Below, piece by piece: positions 6,727-17,876 of a stretch of DNA of 64,000 bases. Every line of letters begins with the position of its first letter. Position 1 is the first letter of the stretch. The notes under the pieces were generated by a model. The model was not told the origin of the DNA, did not search any database, and saw only the letters and a list, made by a program, of their open reading frames with translations. The position numbers were made by a program, and so were the translations under genes. Source of the stretch: Thalassobius vesicularis (lineage in GTDB: Bacteria; Pseudomonadota; Alphaproteobacteria; Rhodobacterales; Rhodobacteraceae); the NCBI RefSeq assembly GCF_004799325.1, contig NZ_SSMD01000005.1:62001-126000 (forward strand), written 5' to 3'.

Positions 6727-6801
6727 TGGAGCGGGCGAGGCGATTCGAACGCCCGACCCTAACCTTGGCAAGGTTATGCTCTACCCCTGAGCTACGCCCG
6801 C
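6727..6801 (-). tRNA. tRNA-Gly (GCC)
   Basis: On the minus strand this folds as a normal cloverleaf: a 7-bp acceptor stem GCGGGCG/CGCCCGC, D arm GCTC...GAGC, anticodon loop TTGCCAA with anticodon GCC inside the stem TAACC/GGTTA, and T loop TTCGAAT. The 3' CCA is encoded (bases 6729-6727). The 75 bases are identical to the copy at 7003-7077. Confidence 0.97.
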
Positions 6802-7002: not shown

Positions 7003-7077
7003 TGGAGCGGGCGAGGCGATTCGAACGCCCGACCCTAACCTTGGCAAGGTTATGCTCTACCCCTGAGCTACGCCCGC
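7003..7077 (-). tRNA. tRNA-Gly (GCC), second identical copy
   Basis: The 75 bases, including the encoded CCA (7005-7003), are identical to the tRNA-Gly at 6727-6801. The anticodon GCC reads GGC and GGT, which are the dominant glycine codons in this GC-rich window, so a double gene dose makes sense. Confidence 0.97.
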
Positions 7078-7263: not shown

Positions 7264-10200
7264 TTATTCCAGCTCGACCAGCAGGTCCTTGGCGTCGATC
7301 TGGGCGCCAGGGGTGACGTGCAGCGCCTTGACGGTGCCGGCACGTTCGGCGTGGATGCCGGTCTCCATTTTCATGGCTTCGATGGTCAGCAGCATGTCGC
7401 CCTCGGCCACTTTCTGGCCGACGGTGACGGCGACCGAGGCCACCACGCCGGGCATCGGCGCGCCGATGTGACCGGGGTTGCCGGCGTCGGCCTTGGGCCG
7501 GGCGGCGGTGGTGGCCTTGATCAGGCGGTTGGGCACGCGGATCACGCGGGGCTGGCCGTTGAGTTCGAAGAACACCTTCACCTCGCCCTGATCATCGGTT
7601 TCGCCGATGGCCTGCAGGCGGATCTCCAGCGTCTTGCCGGGGTCGATCTCGGCGCTGATCTCCTCGCCCGGTTCCATCCCGTAAAAGAAGGTGCGGGTGG
7701 GCAGGGTGCGGACGGGGCCGTAGATGCGGTGGCGACCTGCGTAATCCAGGAAGACCTTGGGGTACATCAGGTAGCCGTTGAGGTCTTCGTTGTCGACCAT
7801 CAGGCCCTCCAGCTCAGCTTGCAGCTGGGTGCGGGTGGCGTCCAGATCGACGGGGGGCAGGTGCTTGCCGGGGCGCTCGGTGTTGGGGGCCTCGCCCTTG
7901 AGCACCTTTTTCAGGATGCCCGCCGGAAAGCCGCCCGGGGGCTGGCCCAGGTTGCCGCGCATCATGTCGATGACCGAGTCGGGGAAGGCGACTTCGCGGT
8001 CGGGGTTTTCGACCTCGGCGCGGGTCAGGTTCTGGCTGACCATCATCAGGGCCATGTCGCCGACGACTTTGGAGGACGGCGTGACCTTGACGATATCGCC
8101 GAACATCTGGTTGACGTCGGCATAGGTGCGGGCGACCTCGTGCCAGCGGTCTTCAAGGCCGAGGCTGCGGGCCTGCGCCTTGAGGTTGGTGAACTGGCCG
8201 CCGGGCATTTCGTGCAGGTAGACCTCGGACGCCGGGGCGGCGAGGCCGGATTCGAAGGCCACGTATTGGCCGCGCACCTGTTCCCAGTAGTCGCTGATCT
8301 GACGCACGGCGTTGATGTCCAGCCCGGTGTCGCGGTCGGTGTGGCGCAGCGCCTCGACGATCGAGCCAAGGCAGGCCTGCGAGGTGCCGCCCGAGAACGC
8401 GTCCATCGCGGCGTCCACGGCATCGACGCCCGCCTCGGCGGCAGCCAGGATGGTGGCTCCGGCGATGCCGCTGGTGTCGTGGGTGTGGAAGTGGACGGGG
8501 ATCGACAGCTCGTCCTTCAGCGCCTTGACCAGCACGCGGGCGGCGGCGGGTTTCAGCAGGCCGGCCATGTCCTTCAGCCCCAGGATATGGGCGCCTGCGG
8601 CCTCCAGGTCCTTGGCCATCGAGACGTAGTATTTCAGGTCATACTTGGCGCGGGCGGGGTCCAGGATGTCGCCGGTATAGCAGATCGTGCCTTCGCAGAT
8701 CTTGCCCGACTCAACGACCGCATCCATCGCGACGCGCATGTTTTCGACCCAGTTCAGGCTGTCGAAGACGCGGAACACGTCGACGCCGGTCTCGGCCGCC
8801 TGGCGCACGAACTCTTGCACCACGTTGTCGGGGTAGTTGGTGTAGCCAACCCCGTTCGAGGCGCGCAGCAGCATCTGCGTCAGCAGGTTGGGCATGGCCG
8901 CGCGCAGGTCGCGCAGGCGCTGCCAGGGGCATTCCTGCAAGAAGCGATAGGCCACGTCGAACGTCGCCCCGCCCCAGCATTCGACCGAGAACAGCTGCGG
9001 CAGATTGGCGGCATAGGCGGGTGCCACCTTGATCATGTCGATCGAGCGCATCCGGGTGGCCAGCAAGGATTGGTGCCCGTCACGCATGGTGGTGTCGGTC
9101 AGCAGCAGCTGCTTTTGATCCAGCATCCAGTCGGCGACGGCCTTGGCGCCCTTGTCCTGCAACAGGTTGCGGGTGCCGGGGGCGGGCTCGGCCTTCAGCT
9201 TGGGGGCGCGGGGCAGCTTGGCCTCGGCCGGTTTGGCGCGGCCGGTGGTTTCGGGGTGCCCGTTCACGGTGATGTCCGCGATATAGGTCAGCACCTTGGT
9301 GCCGCGGTCCTTGCGCTTGGCAAAGTTGAACAGGCCCGGGGTCTCGTCGATGAACTTGGTGGTGTACTTGTTCGACAGGAATGTCGGGTGCTTCAGCAGG
9401 TTTTCCACAAAGGCGATGTTGGTGGAGACGCCGCGGATACGGAATTCGCGCAGCGCGCGGTCCATGCGGGCGATCGCCGCCTCGGGCGTTTGCGCATGGG
9501 CCGTCACCTTGACCAGCAGCGAGTCGTAATACCGCGTGATGACGCCGCCCGCGTAAGCGGTGCCGCCGTCCAGACGGATGCCCATCCCGGTGGCCGAGCG
9601 GTAGGCGGTGATGCGGCCATAATCGGGGATGAAGTTGTTCTGCGGGTCCTCGGTGGTGATCCGGGTTTGCAGGGCGTGGCCGTTCAGGCGGATGTCGTCC
9701 TGGCTGGCCTTGCCGGTGGCCTCGGCCAGGGTCTTGCCCTCGGCGATCTTGATCTGGGCCTGCACGATGTCGATGCCGGTGACTTCCTCGGTCACGGTGT
9801 GTTCGACCTGCACGCGCGGGTTCACCTCGATGAAGTAAAACGCACCGGTGTCCATATCCATCAGGAATTCGACCGTGCCCGCGCATTCATAGTTCACATG
9901 CTGGCAGATGCGTTTGCCCAGTTCGCAAATCTCCTCGCGCTGAGCTTGCGTCAGATAGGGGGCAGGGGCGCGCTCAACAACCTTTTGGTTGCGGCGCTGG
10001 ACCGAGCAATCGCGTTCCCACAGGTGATAGATCTGGCCATGCTGGTCGCCCAGGATCTGCACCTCGACGTGGCGGGCGCGCTGGATCATCTTTTCCAGGT
10101 AGCCCTCGCCATTGCCAAAGGCGGCCTCGGCCTCGCGGCGGCCCTCCATGACCTTTTCGGCCAGTTCTTTCTCGCTGTAGATCGGACGCATGCCGCGCCC

Positions 10201-12160: not shown

Positions 12161-12253
12161 TGACCCCGCCCGCCGCAGGCGAATGCACAAATTATGCGAA
12201 CACAACGGGAACAACCCTTCCCCTTACGCCCTCCGCCCGCTAGATTGCGCCGC

Positions 12254-14590
12254 ATGAGCGATCCCGACCTGCCCCAGCCCAAACCCTCCCTGTCCGCCCG
12301 CGCGATGGCGCTCGCCCCGATGCCCTATCTGGACGGGCTCAACGCCGCCCAACGTCAGGCGGTCGAGGCGCTGGATGGCCCCGTGCTGATGCTGGCGGGT
12401 GCGGGCACCGGCAAGACCAAGGCGCTGACCACCCGCATCGTGCACCTGCTGACGACGCACCGCGCGCAACCGCACGAGATCCTCGCCGTCACCTTCACCA
12501 ACAAGGCCGCGCGAGAGATGAAGGACCGCGTTTCCCGCCTGCTGGGCCAACCGGCCGAGGGGATGCCGTGGCTGGGCACCTTCCACTCGATCTGCGTGAA
12601 ACTGCTGCGCCGCCATGCCGAGTTGGTCGGGCTGAAATCCAACTTCACCATTCTGGACACCGACGATCAGGTCCGCCTGCTCAAGCAATTGATCCAGGCC
12701 AATAATATAGACGAGAAACGCTGGCCCCCGCGCCAGCTGGCCTCGATCATCGACAACTGGAAAAACCGTGCCTGGACCCCAACCCAAGTACCAGCGGGCG
12801 AGGCGGGTGCCTTCAATCATCGCGGCACGGAACTCTACGACCAATACCAGACCCGCCTGCGCGAGCTGAACGCCACCGATTTCGGCGACCTGCTGCTGCA
12901 CATGGTCACGATCTTCCAGAAACACGACGACATCCTTGAGCAATACCGCCGCTGGTTCCGCTACATCCTTGTGGACGAATATCAGGACACCAACGTCGCC
13001 CAATACCTGTGGCTGCGCCTGCTGGCCGGCGGGCACAAGAACATCTGTTGCGTCGGCGATGACGACCAGTCGATCTATGGCTGGCGCGGTGCCGAGGTGG
13101 GCAATATCCTGCGGTTCGAAAAGGATTTTCCCGGCGCGGCGGTGATCCGGCTGGAGCAGAACTACCGCTCGACCCCGCACATCCTGGCAGCGGCCTCGAA
13201 CGTCATTCGCTGCAACGAGGGGCGGCTGGGCAAGACCCTCTGGACCGAGGCCGAAGAGGGCGAAAAAGTCCGCCTGATCGGCCATTGGGACGGCGAGCAA
13301 GAGGCAATCTGGATCGGTGAAGAGATCGAATCCCTGCAACGCGGTACCCGCGGAATGCGCAAGTTCGGGCTGGACCAGATCGCGATTCTGGTCCGCGCCA
13401 GCCACCAGATGCGCGCCTTCGAGGACCGCTTCCTGACCATCGGCCTGCCTTACCGCGTGATCGGCGGCCCGCGTTTCTATGAGCGGCTCGAAATCCGCGA
13501 TGCGATGGCCTATTTCCGCGTGGTGACCTCGCCCAGCGACGATCTGGCATTCGAGCGGATCGTGAACACCCCCAAACGCGGGCTTGGCGACAAGGCCCAG
13601 CAAAACATCCGCGCCGTGGCCCGCGAAAACGGCACCAGCCTGGTCGACGGCGCGCGCCTGCTGTTGCGCGACGGCGGCATCAGCGGCAAGGGCGCAGGCC
13701 AATTGCGCACCCTGATCGAGGGCATCGACCGCTGGGGCCGCATGGCGGGGGACGACGACCTTTCGCATATGGAACTGGCCGAGATCATCCTCGACGAATC
13801 GGGCTACACGACGATGTGGCAAAACGACAAGACGCCCGAAGCGCCCGGCCGTCTGGAAAACCTGAAGGAACTGGTCACACAGCTGGAAAAATTCGAAAAC
13901 CTGCAAGGCTTTCTGGAACATGTCAGCCTGGTCATGGACAATGATCAGGACGACGGCGGCGAAAAGGTCAGCATCATGACCCTGCACGCGGCCAAAGGGC
14001 TGGAATTCCCCGCGGTTTTCTTGCCGGGATGGGAGGACGGCCTGTTCCCCAGCCAACGCAGCATGGACGAATCCGGCCTCAAGGGCCTCGAGGAAGAACG
14101 CCGCCTGGCCTATGTCGGCATCACCCGGGCCGAGGAACTGTGCACGATCTCGTTCGCAGGCAACCGGCGGGTGTTCGGGCAATGGCAATCGCAACTGCCC
14201 TCGCGCTTCATCGACGAGCTGCCCGAAGATCACGTCGAAGTCCTGACGCCCCCGGGCCTATACGGCGGCGGATTCGGCGCCGCACGCCCGACCAGCAGCA
14301 TCGAGGAACGCGCCACAAAGGCCGACGTCTACAACTCGCCGGGCTGGCAACGCATGCAGGCCCGCGCCTCACAACGCCCCGTCAGCCAACCCCGCGAAAG
14401 CCGCGCCCCTGTGATCGACCTGACCGCCACCAGCAGCTTTGCGGTGGGCGACCGGATTTTCCACCAGAAATTCGGCTACGGGTCTGTGCTGGGCATCGAA
14501 GGCGACAAACTGGAAATCGCCTTTGACAAGGCCGGCGAAAAGAAAATCGTCGCGCGTTTTGTGTCAGCGGCCGACGACATCCCGTTCTGA
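12254..14590 (+). CDS. uvrD: UvrD/PcrA-type DNA helicase
   Basis: This 778-residue protein carries the SF1A helicase motifs in order: Walker A GAGTGKT at residues 49-55, LVDEYQDTN, GDDDQSIYGWRGA, VIRLEQNYRS, VSIMTLHAAKGLEFPAVFLP and YVGITRAEE. UvrD/PcrA translocates 3' to 5' on single-stranded DNA and acts in nucleotide-excision and mismatch repair and in clearing recombination intermediates. The C-terminal DRIFHQKFGYGSVLGIEGDK segment is the small domain by which UvrD/PcrA binds RNA polymerase. I start at the ATG at 12254; sequence upstream in frame is repeat-derived. The gene converges on the CcsR sRNA cluster. Confidence 0.95.
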   Translation: MSDPDLPQPKPSLSARAMALAPMPYLDGLNAAQRQAVEALDGPVLMLAGAGTGKTKALTTRIVHLLTTHRAQPHEILAVTFTNKAAREMKDRVSRLLGQPAEGMPWLGTFHSICVKLLRRHAELVGLKSNFTILDTDDQVRLLKQLIQANNIDEKRWPPRQLASIIDNWKNRAWTPTQVPAGEAGAFNHRGTELYDQYQTRLRELNATDFGDLLLHMVTIFQKHDDILEQYRRWFRYILVDEYQDTNVAQYLWLRLLAGGHKNICCVGDDDQSIYGWRGAEVGNILRFEKDFPGAAVIRLEQNYRSTPHILAAASNVIRCNEGRLGKTLWTEAEEGEKVRLIGHWDGEQEAIWIGEEIESLQRGTRGMRKFGLDQIAILVRASHQMRAFEDRFLTIGLPYRVIGGPRFYERLEIRDAMAYFRVVTSPSDDLAFERIVNTPKRGLGDKAQQNIRAVARENGTSLVDGARLLLRDGGISGKGAGQLRTLIEGIDRWGRMAGDDDLSHMELAEIILDESGYTTMWQNDKTPEAPGRLENLKELVTQLEKFENLQGFLEHVSLVMDNDQDDGGEKVSIMTLHAAKGLEFPAVFLPGWEDGLFPSQRSMDESGLKGLEEERRLAYVGITRAEELCTISFAGNRRVFGQWQSQLPSRFIDELPEDHVEVLTPPGLYGGGFGAARPTSSIEERATKADVYNSPGWQRMQARASQRPVSQPRESRAPVIDLTATSSFAVGDRIFHQKFGYGSVLGIEGDKLEIAFDKAGEKKIVARFVSAADDIPF

Positions 14591-14768: not shown

Positions 14769-14857
14769 GAAAAAGAAAACGGCGGCGCCCAGGGAGGAGG
14801 AGGGGGCACCGCCGTCTTTGTTACGTCCAGCCCAGGGAGGAGTAGAGGGCCGACGTA
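14769..14857 (-). ncRNA. CcsR/cuckoo-type sRNA 4 with terminal terminator
   Basis: This is the last of four two-hairpin units read on the minus strand. Hairpin one (14857-14822) has the stem TACGTCGGCCC/GGGCTGGACGTA, slightly imperfect, around CTACTCCTCCCT. Hairpin two (14815-14779) has the stem ACGGCGGTGCCC/GGGCGCCGCCGT around CCTCCTCCCT, and runs into TTTCTTTTT (14777-14769), so it is also the rho-independent terminator of the whole cluster. The linker between the hairpins is 6 bases. See the DUF1127 gene for the family. Confidence 0.85.
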
Positions 14858-14871
14858 TGCTGGTCAAGGAT

Positions 14872-14950
14872 GCGGTGGCCCTCAGGGAGGAGGAGGGAGG
14901 GCCACCGCTCTTGACTACGAAGTGGCCTAGGGAGGAGGGGGCCCTTCGTA
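14872..14950 (-). ncRNA. CcsR/cuckoo-type sRNA 3
   Basis: Two minus-strand hairpins separated by 7 bases. The first (14950-14916) pairs TACGAAGGGCC with GGCCACTTCGTA, with one bulge, around CCCTCCTCCCTA. The second (14908-14872) pairs GCGGTGGCCCT with AGGGCCACCGC over 11 perfect base pairs around CCTCCTCCTCCCTG. Each loop presents an anti-Shine-Dalgarno-like CCTCCTCCC, the hallmark of CcsR RNAs. Confidence 0.88.
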
Positions 14951-14964
14951 TCTGTTGTGCAAGT

Positions 14965-15042
14965 GCGGCGATCCTCAGGGAGGAGGAGGGAGGATCGCCG
15001 CTCTTTGCAACGGACCCCGAAAGGGAGGAGGAAGGGGTCCGT
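14965..15042 (-). ncRNA. CcsR/cuckoo-type sRNA 2
   Basis: Two minus-strand hairpins separated by 8 bases. The first (15042-15010) has the 9-bp stem ACGGACCCC/GGGGTCCGT around TTCCTCCTCCCTTT. The second (15001-14965) has the 11-bp perfect stem GCGGCGATCCT/AGGATCGCCGC around CCTCCTCCTCCCTG, with extra outer pairing between TTGCAA and TTGCACAA. Stem sequences differ from those of the other units but pairing is kept, which shows selection for structure. Confidence 0.88.
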
Positions 15043-15074
15043 ATCTGTTTGGGCCGTTTGGCCCGGAATTTGGT

Positions 15075-15145
15075 GCGGTGACATCAGGGAGGAGGAGAGA
15101 TGTCACCGCTGTTCCAGAAATCCCAGGGAGGAGGAGAGGGATTTC
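15075..15145 (-). ncRNA. CcsR/cuckoo-type sRNA 1
   Basis: Two minus-strand hairpins separated by 7 bases, starting 12 bases after the DUF1127 stop codon. The first (15145-15117) has the 8-bp stem GAAATCCC/GGGATTTC around TCTCCTCCTCCCT. The second (15109-15075) has the 11-bp perfect stem GCGGTGACATC/GATGTCACCGC around TCTCCTCCTCCCT. The 32-base gap to the next unit is longer than the others and holds a further small hairpin (GGGCC-AAAC-GGCCC, 15064-15051). Confidence 0.88.
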
Positions 15146-15157
15146 CGAAGAGATATC

Positions 15158-15376
15158 TTAGTGCGCGTCGTAGACGTGCTCGTATGCGACCGAGCGGATC
15201 TGCGAGCGGCACAGGCCGAGGTCACGCAGTTCCATGTCGGACAGGGAGGCCAGCTCGACCAGGGTCCGGCGGTAGGTTTTGTAGCGGGCGAAACGCGCGC
15301 CCACAGACTTGGTCAGGGCGGCGAAACGATCTGCGATGCCACCTTCGGAGGTGCGGATATCCGATGCGTATGCCAT
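15158..15376 (-). CDS. ccaF1: DUF1127 small protein, CcaF1-like
   Basis: This 72-residue basic protein ends in the DUF1127 (YjiS-like) domain: YKTYRRTLVELASLSDMELRDLGLCRSQI. In Rhodobacter sphaeroides the DUF1127 protein CcaF1 (RSP_6037) is encoded directly upstream of four CcsR sRNAs, is co-transcribed with them under stress from an RpoH-type promoter, and is an RNA-binding factor affecting sRNA maturation and turnover. Length, domain, downstream hairpins and promoter type all match that locus here. The ATG at 15376 is chosen because the upstream in-frame extension crosses the promoter. The symbol is given by synteny. Confidence 0.9.
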   Translation of the reverse strand: MAYASDIRTSEGGIADRFAALTKSVGARFARYKTYRRTLVELASLSDMELRDLGLCRSQIRSVAYEHVYDAH

Positions 15377-15432
15377 GTTCAGCTTCTTTCGTTCTGTTCG
15401 CGTCTTTGCAGTTTCCTGCGCTGTTGGATTGA

Positions 15433-15460
15433 AGATGGGGGAATTGCTGCAGTTGCACAA
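15433..15460 (-). promoter_or_regulatory. RpoH (heat-shock)-type promoter of the ccaF1-CcsR operon
   Basis: On the minus strand TTGTGC (15460-15455) is followed after 14 bases by CCCCATCT (15440-15433). This matches the sigma-32-type consensus (TTGAA, 13-15 bases, CCCCAT). It would give a leader of about 50 bases before the DUF1127 ATG. Stress sigma factors RpoHI/RpoHII drive the homologous operon in Rhodobacter sphaeroides. Confidence 0.7.
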
Positions 15461-15630
15461 TGCCCGATGCTGCATTGCAGCTATGCAAAAAATGCATAAG
15501 CATTGTTGACCTATCGTAAACCTGCATTCTGGATGTGTATTGTCGCAGTTTCCGGTTTCGGCGGTGGCGGGCCTTGCCTTGGCGCCAAAAAACAGCACCT
15601 ATTGCGGCGAATTTTTCGCAGGAGATCGCC

Positions 15631-16701
15631 ATGTCAGTCACGCGCCAGCAGGTGGAACAGGTTCTGTCCCGGATCGAAGTGCCCGGAGGAGGGACGCTGA
15701 TAACGCGCGATCTGGTGCGGGCATTGGTGGTCGAGGGGGGCGATGTGCGCTTTGTGATCGAGGCGCCCAGCCCCGAGGCCGCCCGCGCGATGGAGATGGT
15801 GCAGGCCGACGCCGAGGACCAGCTGAAGCGGCTGCCCGGCGTGGGCAAGGTGATGGTTGCGCTGACCGCGCACGGCCCGGCGCCCAAGAAACCCGCCCCC
15901 AGTCTGAAGATCGGCGGACATCCGACTCCGCAGGCGGGGCCGACGAAACCGGCGGGCGTGGACAAGATCATCGTCGTGGGCTCGGGCAAGGGTGGCGTGG
16001 GCAAATCCACGGTTTCGTCCAACCTGGCGGTGGCTTTGGCCAAGGCGGGGCGGCGGGTTGGCCTGCTGGACGCGGACATTTACGGCCCCTCGCAGCAGCG
16101 CATGATGGGGACGACCAAGCGCCCCTCGAGCCCGGACGGCAAGACGATCGAGCCGCTGCACGCACATGGCGTCACCATGATGTCGATCGGCGCGATGATG
16201 GACCCCGACAAGGCGGTGATCTGGCGCGGGCCGATGCTGATGGGGGCGTTGCAGCAGATGCTGGGGCAGGTGGCCTGGGGCGATCTGGACGTGATGATCG
16301 TGGACCTGCCGCCGGGCACGGGCGACATCCAACTGACGCTGTGCCAGAAGACGCTGCTGACCGGGGCCATCGTGGTCTCGACCCCGCAGGACGTGGCGCT
16401 GATCGACGCGCGCAAGGCGCTGGACATGTTCAAGACGCTGAACACGCCGGTGCTGGGCCTGATCGAGAACATGTCGGTGTTCCACTGCCCCAATTGCGGG
16501 CACGAGGCGCATATCTTTGGCCATGGCGGCGTGGCGGACGAGGCCAAGAAGCTGGGCGTGCCGCTGCTGGCCGAGCTGCCGATCGACCTGGAAACCCGCC
16601 TGGCGGGCGATGCGGGTACGCCGATTGCGGCGGGCGACAGCGCGATGGCGCAGGCCTATGCGCAGGTGGCGCAACGTCTGATCCAGGGCGGTATGGCTTG
16701 A
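15631..16701 (+). CDS. mrp: Mrp/NBP35 family iron-sulfur cluster carrier ATPase
   Basis: This 356-residue protein has an N-terminal MIP18-like domain (residues 1 to about 85), a Pro/Lys-rich linker, and a ParA-like ATPase domain with the deviant Walker A GSGKGGVGKS at 117-126, DADIYGPSQQ, and VDLPPGTGD. The bridging-cluster motif CPNC (in FHCPNCGHEAHIFG) is present. Mrp/ApbC proteins hold a labile [4Fe-4S] cluster at the dimer interface and deliver it to apoproteins in the cytosol. The ATG at 15631 follows CAGGAG by 7 bases. It is divergent from the stress-induced DUF1127/sRNA operon. Confidence 0.95.
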   Translation: MSVTRQQVEQVLSRIEVPGGGTLITRDLVRALVVEGGDVRFVIEAPSPEAARAMEMVQADAEDQLKRLPGVGKVMVALTAHGPAPKKPAPSLKIGGHPTPQAGPTKPAGVDKIIVVGSGKGGVGKSTVSSNLAVALAKAGRRVGLLDADIYGPSQQRMMGTTKRPSSPDGKTIEPLHAHGVTMMSIGAMMDPDKAVIWRGPMLMGALQQMLGQVAWGDLDVMIVDLPPGTGDIQLTLCQKTLLTGAIVVSTPQDVALIDARKALDMFKTLNTPVLGLIENMSVFHCPNCGHEAHIFGHGGVADEAKKLGVPLLAELPIDLETRLAGDAGTPIAAGDSAMAQAYAQVAQRLIQGGMA

Positions 16702-16738: not shown

Positions 16739-16796
16739 ACGGGCATTCACGGGAATTCGGCGGGATTGCGCGGGATTTCCGGGAATTCACGGGAAT
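16720..16796 (+). repeat. helically phased GGGAATT array A upstream of mraZ
   Basis: GGG followed by ATT, AATT or CATT occurs at 16720, 16741, 16751, 16762, 16772, 16781 and 16791. Apart from one missing box, the start-to-start spacing is 9-11 bp, one helical turn. The period resembles the E. coli MraZ operator (TGGGA repeats every 10 bp). The array sits right after mrp, about 580 bp before mraZ. Two more boxes (GGGATT 16918, GGGAAA 16928) again differ by 10 bp. Confidence 0.6.
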
Positions 16797-17005
16797 GACT
16801 GCGCCAGTTCCCGCCGAACCGAATCACTTTCCGTTGAAAATTGTAGGAAAACAGGCCCGCGCGACCGGGGTTGCGCCGGTTTTTGCTGCTTTGGGCTACC
16901 AAATCTTGAAATTTTCCGGGATTGCACGGGAAAAATTTTCAGCTCCGCGACATTACTATATCTAGTGGTTGATTTTCATTTATGGGCAAATTATGCCAAA
17001 TAATC

Positions 17006-17025
17006 TGTGGATAACCGGTGGATAA
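17006..17025 (-). promoter_or_regulatory. two adjacent DnaA boxes
   Basis: On the minus strand TTATCCACA (17014-17006) is a perfect DnaA box, and TTATCCACC (17025-17017) is a one-mismatch box one helical turn (11 bp) away in the same orientation. They lie about 350 bp upstream of mraZ, between the two GGGA arrays. DnaA could regulate the dcw transcript here; two boxes alone are too few for an origin. Confidence 0.5.
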
Positions 17026-17057
17026 CTCTCTGTTTCGGGGTGTTGTACTGGCCTTGT

Positions 17058-17113
17058 CCCGGAAAAATCCCGCCAATTCCTGTTGATTTCCATGAATTCC
17101 CATGGCATCCCTT
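17058..17113 (-). repeat. helically phased GGGA array B, candidate MraZ operator
   Basis: Read on the minus strand, six boxes (GGGAT, GGGAA, GGAAA, GGAAT, GGGAT, GGGAC) follow one another at 10-bp steps between 17111 and 17058. It is the mirror orientation of array A. It lies just upstream of the expected start of the UpsM/mraZ leader transcript, the place where an autorepressor such as MraZ would bind. In E. coli MraZ binds TGGGN repeats of 10-bp period. Binding here is inference. Confidence 0.5.
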
Positions 17114-17117
17114 GTGT

Positions 17118-17323
17118 ATCGAAAAAAGACGGAACGGGGACACAGAGCCCCGGTCAAAAATAAAAAAAGCAGGTTTCATACAGGCTCCGCTTTCTTCGAA
17201 CCAAGAGATCCGGCGCGCGAGCGAGCAGACATCCCCCCAGGTGGCGCGTGCAGCTGGACACACCCCGCAAAGCGGGACGAGGGCGGCGGATTGGGCAGTG
17301 GCAGCAGCTCAATCCGCCGTTTT
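17118..17323 (+). ncRNA. UpsM-like sRNA from the mraZ 5' leader (5' end estimated)
   Basis: In Rhodobacter sphaeroides the dcw mRNA has an unusually long leader that is prematurely terminated to give the roughly 206-nt sRNA UpsM. Here a terminator-like hairpin lies 50 bp before mraZ in the same place, and no gene occupies the 670 bp between mrp and mraZ. The 3' end is set by the hairpin at 17284-17323; the 5' end is only set by the known size of UpsM and I could not find a convincing -10/-35 pair. Identity rests on position, not on recognised sequence. Confidence 0.5.
17284..17323 (+). terminator. terminator/attenuator in the mraZ leader
   Basis: CGGCGGATTG (17284-17293) and CAATCCGCCG (17310-17319) form a perfect 10-bp stem with a 16-base loop, followed by TTTT. 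It stands 49 bp before the mraZ start codon. Partial termination here would yield a short leader RNA and limit expression of the whole dcw cluster. Confidence 0.7.
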
Positions 17324-17372
17324 CCGTAATACGGCCCGGAAACGGGTCAGGGACAGGTAAAGGAGCGCCGCG

Positions 17373-17876
17373 TTGGCCGGCATGTTCATAGGCGAACACA
17401 CCTTCAAGGTGGACGGAAAGGGACGCGTGTCGATCCCTGCCGATTTTCGCAATGAGCTGACCGAGGGTGACCCCCAAGCCGCCGCAACTGGCCGTCCCCG
17501 CATGGTGATCGTCTACGGTCACGAATCCCAGAAACAACTGATCGTCCACACCTTCGAGGGCTTCCGCGCCCTGGCCGAGGAAATCCGCGGGCTTCCGCGT
17601 GGATCCAAGCGCCGGATCATCATGGAGCGCATGATCCTGAACCTGGCCAAGCCGATCGAGCTGGACAATGACGGCCGCTTTGTGCTGCCGCAGATGATGC
17701 GCGACAAGATCGGGCTGGACGGCACGGCGTATTTCGCCGGGATGGGCGAGACCTTTGAGATCTGGAAGCCCGAAACGCACGAGGCCGAGCAGGCCAGCTT
17801 TGCCGAGGATTGGCTGGCCGAGATGGGGCCGAACGCCAACCCTCTGTCGCTGTTGGATGAAGCGGGGGATCTGTGA
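17373..17876 (+). CDS. mraZ: MraZ, transcriptional regulator of the dcw cluster
   Basis: This 167-residue protein has two MraZ/AbrB-like DNA-binding repeats: [20 protein letters not shown] near the N-terminus and [20 protein letters not shown] at about residues 90-110. MraZ forms rings and represses its own operon by binding GGGA-type repeats. The start is probably the TTG at 17373, because AAGGAG (17360-17365) is 7 bases away; the first ATG at 17382 is 16 bases away, which is too far. It is the first gene of the dcw cluster and its stop overlaps the rsmH start (TGATG). Confidence 0.95.

Follow-up and report, generated by a model that had tools for sequence, protein, structure and literature searches.

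What does a row of eight hairpins that share one loop do behind a short DUF1127 gene, and what controls it? The question is raised by a stretch of 64,000 nucleotides from Thalassobius vesicularis (contig NZ_SSMD01000005.1, positions 62,001 to 126,000), hereafter the window, in which an earlier note drawn from the letters alone had marked such a row at 14769-15376. It is near certain that the locus is a CcaF1-CcsR (CIN1/cuckoo) operon, a known kind, and we put the probability at roughly 0.7 that it acts as a stress- and probably polyhydroxybutyrate (PHB)-responsive anti-Shine-Dalgarno (anti-SD) RNA operon of a Thalassovita-like rhodobacterium. The most informative part of the locus is its promoter, which lies upstream of the interval covered by the earlier note. 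Papers are cited by PMC number and in excerpt, and G, C and L numbers denote genomes, contigs and loci.

The DUF1127 gene and the hairpin array

The word CTCCTCCCT occurs exactly eight times in the window, every time on the minus strand and within 14791-15133, where dinucleotide-preserving shuffles give an expectation of 0.36 copies per window and none of them reaches eight. Each copy forms the loop of its own predicted hairpin, with folding energies from -15.8 to -29.9 kcal/mol, so that word count and folds together confirm the eight minus-strand hairpins, with a common loop and stems of their own, that had been described. The gaps between neighbouring hairpins are 3, 4, 7, and 8 nt inside pairs and 32, 10, and 18 nt from pair to pair, and by this spacing the hairpins group into four two-hairpin units, as the earlier note rightly had it. 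Its alternation of short and long linkers also stands, but its linker lengths (6-8 and 14-32 bases) do not hold as exact values, since these vary with the chosen stem end. The DUF1127 gene is short and lies on the same strand, directly upstream of the first hairpin; its assignment is borne out by Pfam. The features of the operon are as follows:

15161..15376, minus strand: ccaF1-like gene for a 72-aa DUF1127 protein (PF06568, 48.4 bits, E 7.5e-13), with the stop codon at 15158-15160
15070..15154, minus strand: CcsR-like small RNA (sRNA) 1, predicted hairpins 15113-15149 and 15075-15109 (RF02791, 59.2 bits; folds)
14960..15045, minus strand: CcsR-like sRNA 2, predicted hairpins 15010-15042 and 14961-15005 (RF02791, 39.3 bits; folds)
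14867..14952, minus strand: CcsR-like sRNA 3, predicted hairpins 14916-14950 and 14872-14908 (RF02791, 32.8 bits; folds)
14774..14860, minus strand: CcsR-like sRNA 4, predicted hairpins 14827-14853 and 14776-14818 (RF02791, 35.4 bits; folds)
14770..14818, minus strand: probable intrinsic terminator, made of the last hairpin and a T-rich tract (sequence, fold)

At gathering thresholds, an Rfam search of the window returned nothing but two tRNAs. In a permissive search the CcsR1 family (RF02791) matches all four units, aligned over model positions 1-83 in each, with E from 7.8e-14 to 5.1e-6 in a search of 901 bases; the best E at the locus in a genome-wide search is 7.6e-14. It counts against the identification that none of the four reaches the gathering score of 65.3 bits, and the covariance-model check proposed earlier therefore comes out in two parts, with every unit matched and the cut-off missed. 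Across 120 Rhodobacteraceae genomes (119 genera) surveyed at E <= 0.001, CcsR1 is matched in 102 yet exceeds the gathering cut-off in only 7, which indicates that the cut-off is narrow. We regard the four units as members of the wider cuckoo/CIN1 kind and do not file them as formal members of RF02791. The family ar14 (RF02344), an alphaproteobacterial relative which we take to hold the rhizobial RNAs of three or four hairpins, covers the same region with scores under its own cut-off (53.2, 45.1, and 41.5 versus 58.8 bits). The rhizobial RNAs carry the same loop on three or four hairpins (PMC3927594), unlike the window with two per unit. Matches to Scr3202, 6C, ar7, ncS035, anti-hemB, and two miRNA families are set aside as chance, being far below gathering and either overlapping CcsR/ar14 or on the opposite strand. 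Two RF02791 matches in relatives (G006:C24 and G019:C12) are doubtful, with no CTCCTCC-loop hairpin on the matched strand.

The layout had been equated with the CcsR1-4/CcaF1 locus of Rhodobacter sphaeroides, and this is supported by published descriptions (PMC10253847; PMC3927594) and by the RF02791 matches on all units. In both loci, two-hairpin RNAs with the CCUCCUCCC loop come after a DUF1127 gene, the promoter is of the RpoH type, and there is an Mrp-like neighbour. The R. sphaeroides-like genome G069 additionally carries site 2 of the promoter block described below and a near-match of site 1 (CCGCATGGCAGCA). At its ccaF1 locus there are 14 loops, and five of the units there are near-identical tandem copies of ∼115 bp; the window has four distinct units. 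As a side observation, the loops of G069 exceed the four CcsR RNAs named in print. The association with short DUF1127 genes and the hairpins with a CCUCCUCCC loop and sequence-free helices, by which the cuckoo/CIN1 RNAs were delimited (Reinkensmeier and Giegerich 2015; via PMC4504443, PMC10253847), are both found in the window, and the excerpts hold nothing that excludes it. Four units are present in eight of the nine loci of the genus, the window included, and five in the other, two of them near-identical tandem copies (the locus L050 has seven hairpins by the hairpin rule and eight loops by loop count). Copy number and stems are thus ordinary for the kind, and the earlier suggestion that they are worth describing in this species falls away. 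Relatives of the CcaF1 protein are 42-88% identical in 11 named loci, and given that four of these are named Thalassovita, the genus is taken from sequence to be Thalassovita-like.

The stems were compared in a covariation test in which hairpins were picked by loop sequence alone, the stems disregarded, and ten stem levels were scored. Among 50 distinct hairpins from the nine genus loci, a set that takes in only five of the window's eight hairpins (those with the full 13-base loop), 83% of cells are paired, versus 43-55% with slid partners and 56% with arms dealt anew, and each stem level shows three to six standard pair types. The wider set of 61 ccaF1 loci (292 distinct hairpins) gives 72% paired versus 43-60% slid and 52% dealt anew. 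Family loci in this work number 60, one per genome, among the matches listed from the 102 positive genomes (G062, with its match at a contig end, is left out); of 74 cuckoo loci, 13 have no DUF1127 match and thus stand outside the 61 ccaF1 loci. The claim that stems vary while pairing is kept therefore stands with one amendment: in every pair the stem base of the 3′ hairpin is conserved, as GCGGYG...CRCCGC or, in the last pair, ACGGCGG, so the stems are not wholly free in sequence. It is highly improbable that these are merely repetitive terminator-like or REP-like elements with no function in trans. This reading draws on the terminator-like last hairpin and on clear tandem duplication in G008 and G069. 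Such elements would not be expected to conserve the loop while stems change with pairing kept, to be matched so widely across the family, or to have a promoter block common to free-standing copies.

Two further observations concern the hairpins themselves. The 3′ hairpins of units 2 and 3 are extended by an additional outer helix (e.g., GTCAAG/CTTGAC) that closes an internal loop (14864-14914 and 14957-15007, minus strand), and TGTCA/TGACA pairs resembling it are visible in relatives. The genome as a whole has 25 copies of CTCCTCCCT; those at C1:308536 and 308617 were rejected as cuckoo loops, as they are not in hairpin loops.

The operon is likely expressed as a single transcript that would start ∼48 nt before ccaF1, run through the four two-hairpin sRNAs, and end in the last hairpin. 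By analogy with R. sphaeroides, where CcsR maturation involves RNase E and CcaF1 (PMC10253847; PMC8307010), the sRNAs, 75-85 nt by the units seen, would be cut from the 3′ untranslated region (UTR) by RNase E with the help of CcaF1. Their CUCCUCCCU loops may then pair with purine-rich SD sequences of target mRNAs; the loop of this family has been termed anti-SD (PMC3927594). A different function, in which the loops mainly bind or titrate a protein (CcaF1 or another CU-rich RNA binder), is suggested by the RNA binding of CcaF1 and its effect on the maturation of CcsR and other RNAs (PMC10253847), and many identical loops in a row would resemble a protein sponge. We consider this quite unlikely as the main role, since the loop is kept in free-standing CcsR units that have no DUF1127 gene and is the complement of extended SD sequences, and since the FlhR mRNA is a named target of the CcsR RNAs in R. 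sphaeroides (PMC8307010). As a separate observation, none of the 61 ccaF1 starts (start codons guessed) has an SD complement to the loops of at least 6 nt, as if the gene avoided its own RNAs.

The promoter block of ccaF1

A block of ∼85 bp, located upstream of ccaF1, is conserved in the nine genus loci. Its elements in the window are:

15468..15481, minus strand: site 1, GCTGCAATGCAGCA, a PhaR-type palindrome (position weight matrix (PWM) 16.5 at 15465 and 14.8 at 15473; consensus match)
15445..15461, minus strand: site 2, ATTGTGCAACTGCAGCA, overlapping the RpoH-type -35 TTG at 15458-15460 (sequence)
15432..15441, minus strand: RpoH-type -10, CCCCCATCTT, with A at -12 and T at -9 in agreement with the R. 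sphaeroides rule

In its family form the block reads CTGCATRGCAGCATTG, a spacer, ATTGTGCANNYGCAGCA, and then the -10. RpoH promoters of R. sphaeroides follow a rule of TTG at -36 to -34, A at -12, and T at -9 (PMC3441632), and the ccaF1 promoter, TTG-N21-A-N2-T, fits it by sequence; the R. sphaeroides operon is itself driven by an RpoHI/RpoHII promoter (PMC10253847). The strict RpoH spacing is found in 33 of the 59 loci with the site-1 core by regular expression, an alignment in which two of 61 loci have no site-1 core and the leftmost-match rule misplaced L044 and L144. In 57/61 loci the 300 bp upstream of ccaF1 contain the site-2 core, and the gap between the two sites, in the 55 loci with both, is 15 (28 loci), 14 (15 loci), or 6 (12 loci, including the window).

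The best candidate to bind the two TGC-palindromes, which flank and overlap the -35 region, is PhaR (AniA), which senses PHB granules. Site 1 of the window exactly matches TGCRNYGCASMA, the PhaR consensus of B. diazoefficiens deduced with DNase footprints (PMC6201568), and also matches the S. meliloti consensus YGCRNYGCR (PMC12542648). A PWM was built from 18 S. meliloti sites, those of promoters rated Efficient in Table 3 of PMC12542648, with two of four exoH sequences left out. It reaches 13 bits at only three positions of the window, the top two being the ccaF1 promoter, and block shuffles of the window give 0.4 such positions per window. Elsewhere in the same genome this matrix finds phaP (22.0 and 18.0), phaR (17.5), and phaC/phaZ (14.6); these pha genes, and the thiolase mentioned below, were named by eye from translations, apart from PhaR, which was assigned by PF07879 (one gene in this genome, 98.5 bits). 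Within 300 bp upstream of ccaF1 a PWM of at least 12 is found in 50/61 loci versus 5/305 shuffles and 1/122 other stretches (in two loci the best match is away from site 1: at -275 in L152 and over site 2 in L145). The same threshold is reached in 65 of 91 phaP zones, counted from 92 PhaR loci of which one was too short. Among the other DUF1127 genes of this genome, a palindrome lies upstream of two (L096, 25.3 bits; L097, 13.8 bits).

The arrangement is also that of known PhaR targets. Palindromes flank or overlap the -35 at phaP in the PhaR/AniA regulon (PMC12542648), as at ccaF1 of the window, and site 2 resembles the PhaR site CAATTGTGCACCGCAGCATTA of the S. meliloti sRNA gene mmgR, save for one extra base (PMC12542648). 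The term DUF1127 does not occur in PMC12542648, in Table 3 of which many S. meliloti genes are given by locus tag without a name, and six tags and terms sought in PMC12218461 are absent there. The family form of site 1, CTGCATRGCAGMAT, has eight matches in 12 genomes and none in the reversed control; by eye, five lie in ccaF1/CcsR promoters, one is in G069, and two (G123 and G013) are coding-like.

Judging from these sites, PhaR may control the ccaF1 promoter. Accumulated PHB is described as sequestering PhaR, so that the repression of phasin and PHB depolymerase genes is lifted (PMC12542648). Given sites over and beside the -35, repression of ccaF1 by PhaR would be the most likely effect. Stress would raise expression of the operon and PHB, on binding PhaR, would release it further, so that stress sigma factors and PHB would act jointly.

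Several points weigh against a part for PhaR. The excerpted description of the R. sphaeroides operon has it RpoHI/RpoHII-driven and leaves PhaR unmentioned (PMC10253847), and the PWM stays below 10 upstream of ccaF1 in 6/61 loci, including R. sphaeroides-like G069 (7.7). Site 1 in most other genera is TGCATRGCAGCA, one base off the consensus Y, and site 2 there is TGC-N4-GCA and not N3, which the PWM leaves unscored. Two further DUF1127 genes of this genome have little to show, L095 with 12.2 bits and no palindrome ∼125 nt before the domain match, and L094 with nothing of at least 9.5. The matrix falls below 12 in 26 of the 91 phaP zones, with only 5.8 in G018. PhaR is present in 117/120 family genomes, the three that lack it being nearly or wholly CcsR-free, and such near-universal presence means that the co-occurrence of PhaR and CcsR tests little.

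The one-base deviation of site 1, the low G069 score, and the DUF1127 genes with little to show would be accommodated if the operon and its RNAs are as described but the palindromes bind another regulator or extend the RpoH promoter, with PhaR uninvolved. The inclusion of the -35 TTG in site 2 suits this, as does the fact that site 2 tracks CcsR far more closely than it does PHB genes (see below). We nonetheless think it unlikely. The matrix of S. meliloti PhaR sites picks out PHB genes as well as ccaF1, and the RpoH promoter rule, as excerpted from PMC3441632, includes no CTGC-N3-GCAG palindrome upstream of the -35. In addition, the sole CTGCATRGCAGMAT match of G069 has a phaC-like ORF (open reading frame) on one side and a phaZ-like ORF on the other, and PhaR is reported to repress phaZ in R. 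sphaeroides (PMC6201568). PhaR thus remains our preferred candidate in what follows.

The block at free-standing CcsR genes and the phaP-phaR hairpins

The site-2 word ATTGTGCANNYGCAG has two perfect matches in the 3.79-Mb genome, 14 with one mismatch, and none in the reversed control. One perfect match is the ccaF1 promoter, and the other lies 22 nt before a fifth, free-standing CcsR unit:

G000:C12:27363-27447 (L037 2964-3048, minus strand): fifth CcsR unit, two hairpins with loops CTTCCTCCCT and CTCCTCCTCCCT and a T-tract terminator of its own

This unit has no DUF1127 gene and lies 3′ of a tRNA-Met/tRNA-Leu pair. It may be of prophage origin or belong to the host: phage-like genes, including phage head genes, adjoin it, and a similar tRNA-Met/tRNA-Leu pair in G004 is found without a CcsR unit. 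In G014 (L040 2608-3080, on a 5.2-kb contig), cuckoo-type hairpins stand behind a tRNA-Met(cat), with TGC-palindromes between.

Across the family, the 17-mer ATTGTGCANNYGCAGCA is found in 79/102 CcsR-positive versus 1/18 CcsR-negative genomes and in 0/120 of the reversed control (Fisher 6.6e-9, a value that overstates the case because the rows are related by descent). The single exception, G135, has no DUF1127 match and a single CCTCC word 735 nt away. When 30 site-2 loci were sampled, 23 had at least two cuckoo loop words within 900 nt, 20 of them with and three without a DUF1127 match; of the other seven, one (G099) precedes a thiolase-like ORF, read as PhaA by eye. Site 2 is also present in nine of the 13 cuckoo loci without a DUF1127 match, and in six of the 13 the distance from site 2 to the first loop is 49-130 nt, which leaves no room for a DUF1127 gene. 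The promoter block is therefore a feature of the RNAs as well as of the protein gene.

A second set of hairpins lies within the PHB genes. A CTCCTCCC-type CCTCC-loop hairpin occurs between phaP and phaR in 34/76 CcsR-positive versus 0/16 CcsR-negative genomes (Fisher 3.5e-4, again overstated by descent), with 92 genomes examined of the 117 with PhaR; L250 is a short contig end of 704 bases. In the controls the counts are 0/92 for the antisense strand, 0/92 for phaR coding on either strand, and, for the upstream stretch, 4/91 sense and 2/91 antisense. There is one such hairpin in this genome and two in G003. Hairpins of this kind lie at:

L093 ∼7480-7520, minus strand, and L039 2980-3080: hairpins with CCTCC loops in the phaP-phaR interval; a separate terminator-like hairpin follows before phaR

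The ribosome-binding site of phaR in this genome, GGGAGGA, is a perfect loop complement, with a duplex of -14.3 kcal/mol versus -1.5 for ccaF1. As a loop target it is suggestive only. The phaR SD was rejected as a demonstrably selected target, since a complement of at least 6 nt is present in 52/76 CcsR-positive but also in 8/16 CcsR-negative genomes and does not discriminate; these counts rest on guessed start codons, and their control, 34 ORFs of the window each scored at the best of several possible starts, is crude. The 11 top-scoring PhaR matches are all in CcsR-negative genomes, so that CcsR presence tracks a clade or a subtype of PhaR and the comparison is confounded by descent.

If these strands are joined, the cuckoo/CcsR RNAs would form the RNA arm of a PHB circuit in the Rhodobacteraceae. 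PhaR, held or released depending on PHB, would gate the RpoH stress promoter of CcaF1 and the anti-SD RNAs, also at free-standing CcsR genes, while the phaP 3′-UTR hairpin and the CcsR loops would pair with the GGGAGGA of phaR. Stress, translation, and carbon storage would then be tied together in a feedback loop. We offer this circuit tentatively, as a possible arrangement with the odds leaning against it.

Neighbouring genes and significance

The genes on either side of the operon are:

12194..14590, plus strand: UvrD/PcrA-type helicase, convergent downstream neighbour outside the operon (profile match)
15634..16701, plus strand: Mrp/ApbC-type ATPase, divergent neighbour sharing the intergenic region (profile match)

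A divergent Mrp-like ORF also lies beside ccaF1 of G069 (L098; read by eye). Further along the window, 16750-17373 is the gap before an mraZ-like ORF that opens a dcw-like cluster (names by eye), a position that matches that of the leader sRNA UpsM in R. sphaeroides (PMC5089854). The two tRNA genes, at 6730-6801 and 7006-7077, lie 276 bp apart and have identical Rfam scores and printed alignments.

The locus itself is of an ordinary, known kind, and the proposed link to PHB is the new part. In the open-licence PMC literature searched, no mention was found of the conserved PhaR-/RpoH-type block, of its recurrence at free-standing CcsR units, or of the phaP-phaR cuckoo hairpins. One paper there that mentions both phaR and DUF1127 genes names them apart and does not join them, and papers that contain both PhaR and CcsR are on unrelated subjects by title. 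The promoter block provides a testable link between PHB storage and the cuckoo RNAs, and can also serve as a sequence tag for cuckoo genes that have no DUF1127 gene to reveal them. The hairpins between phaP and phaR, in turn, nominate phaR as a conserved target of these RNAs.
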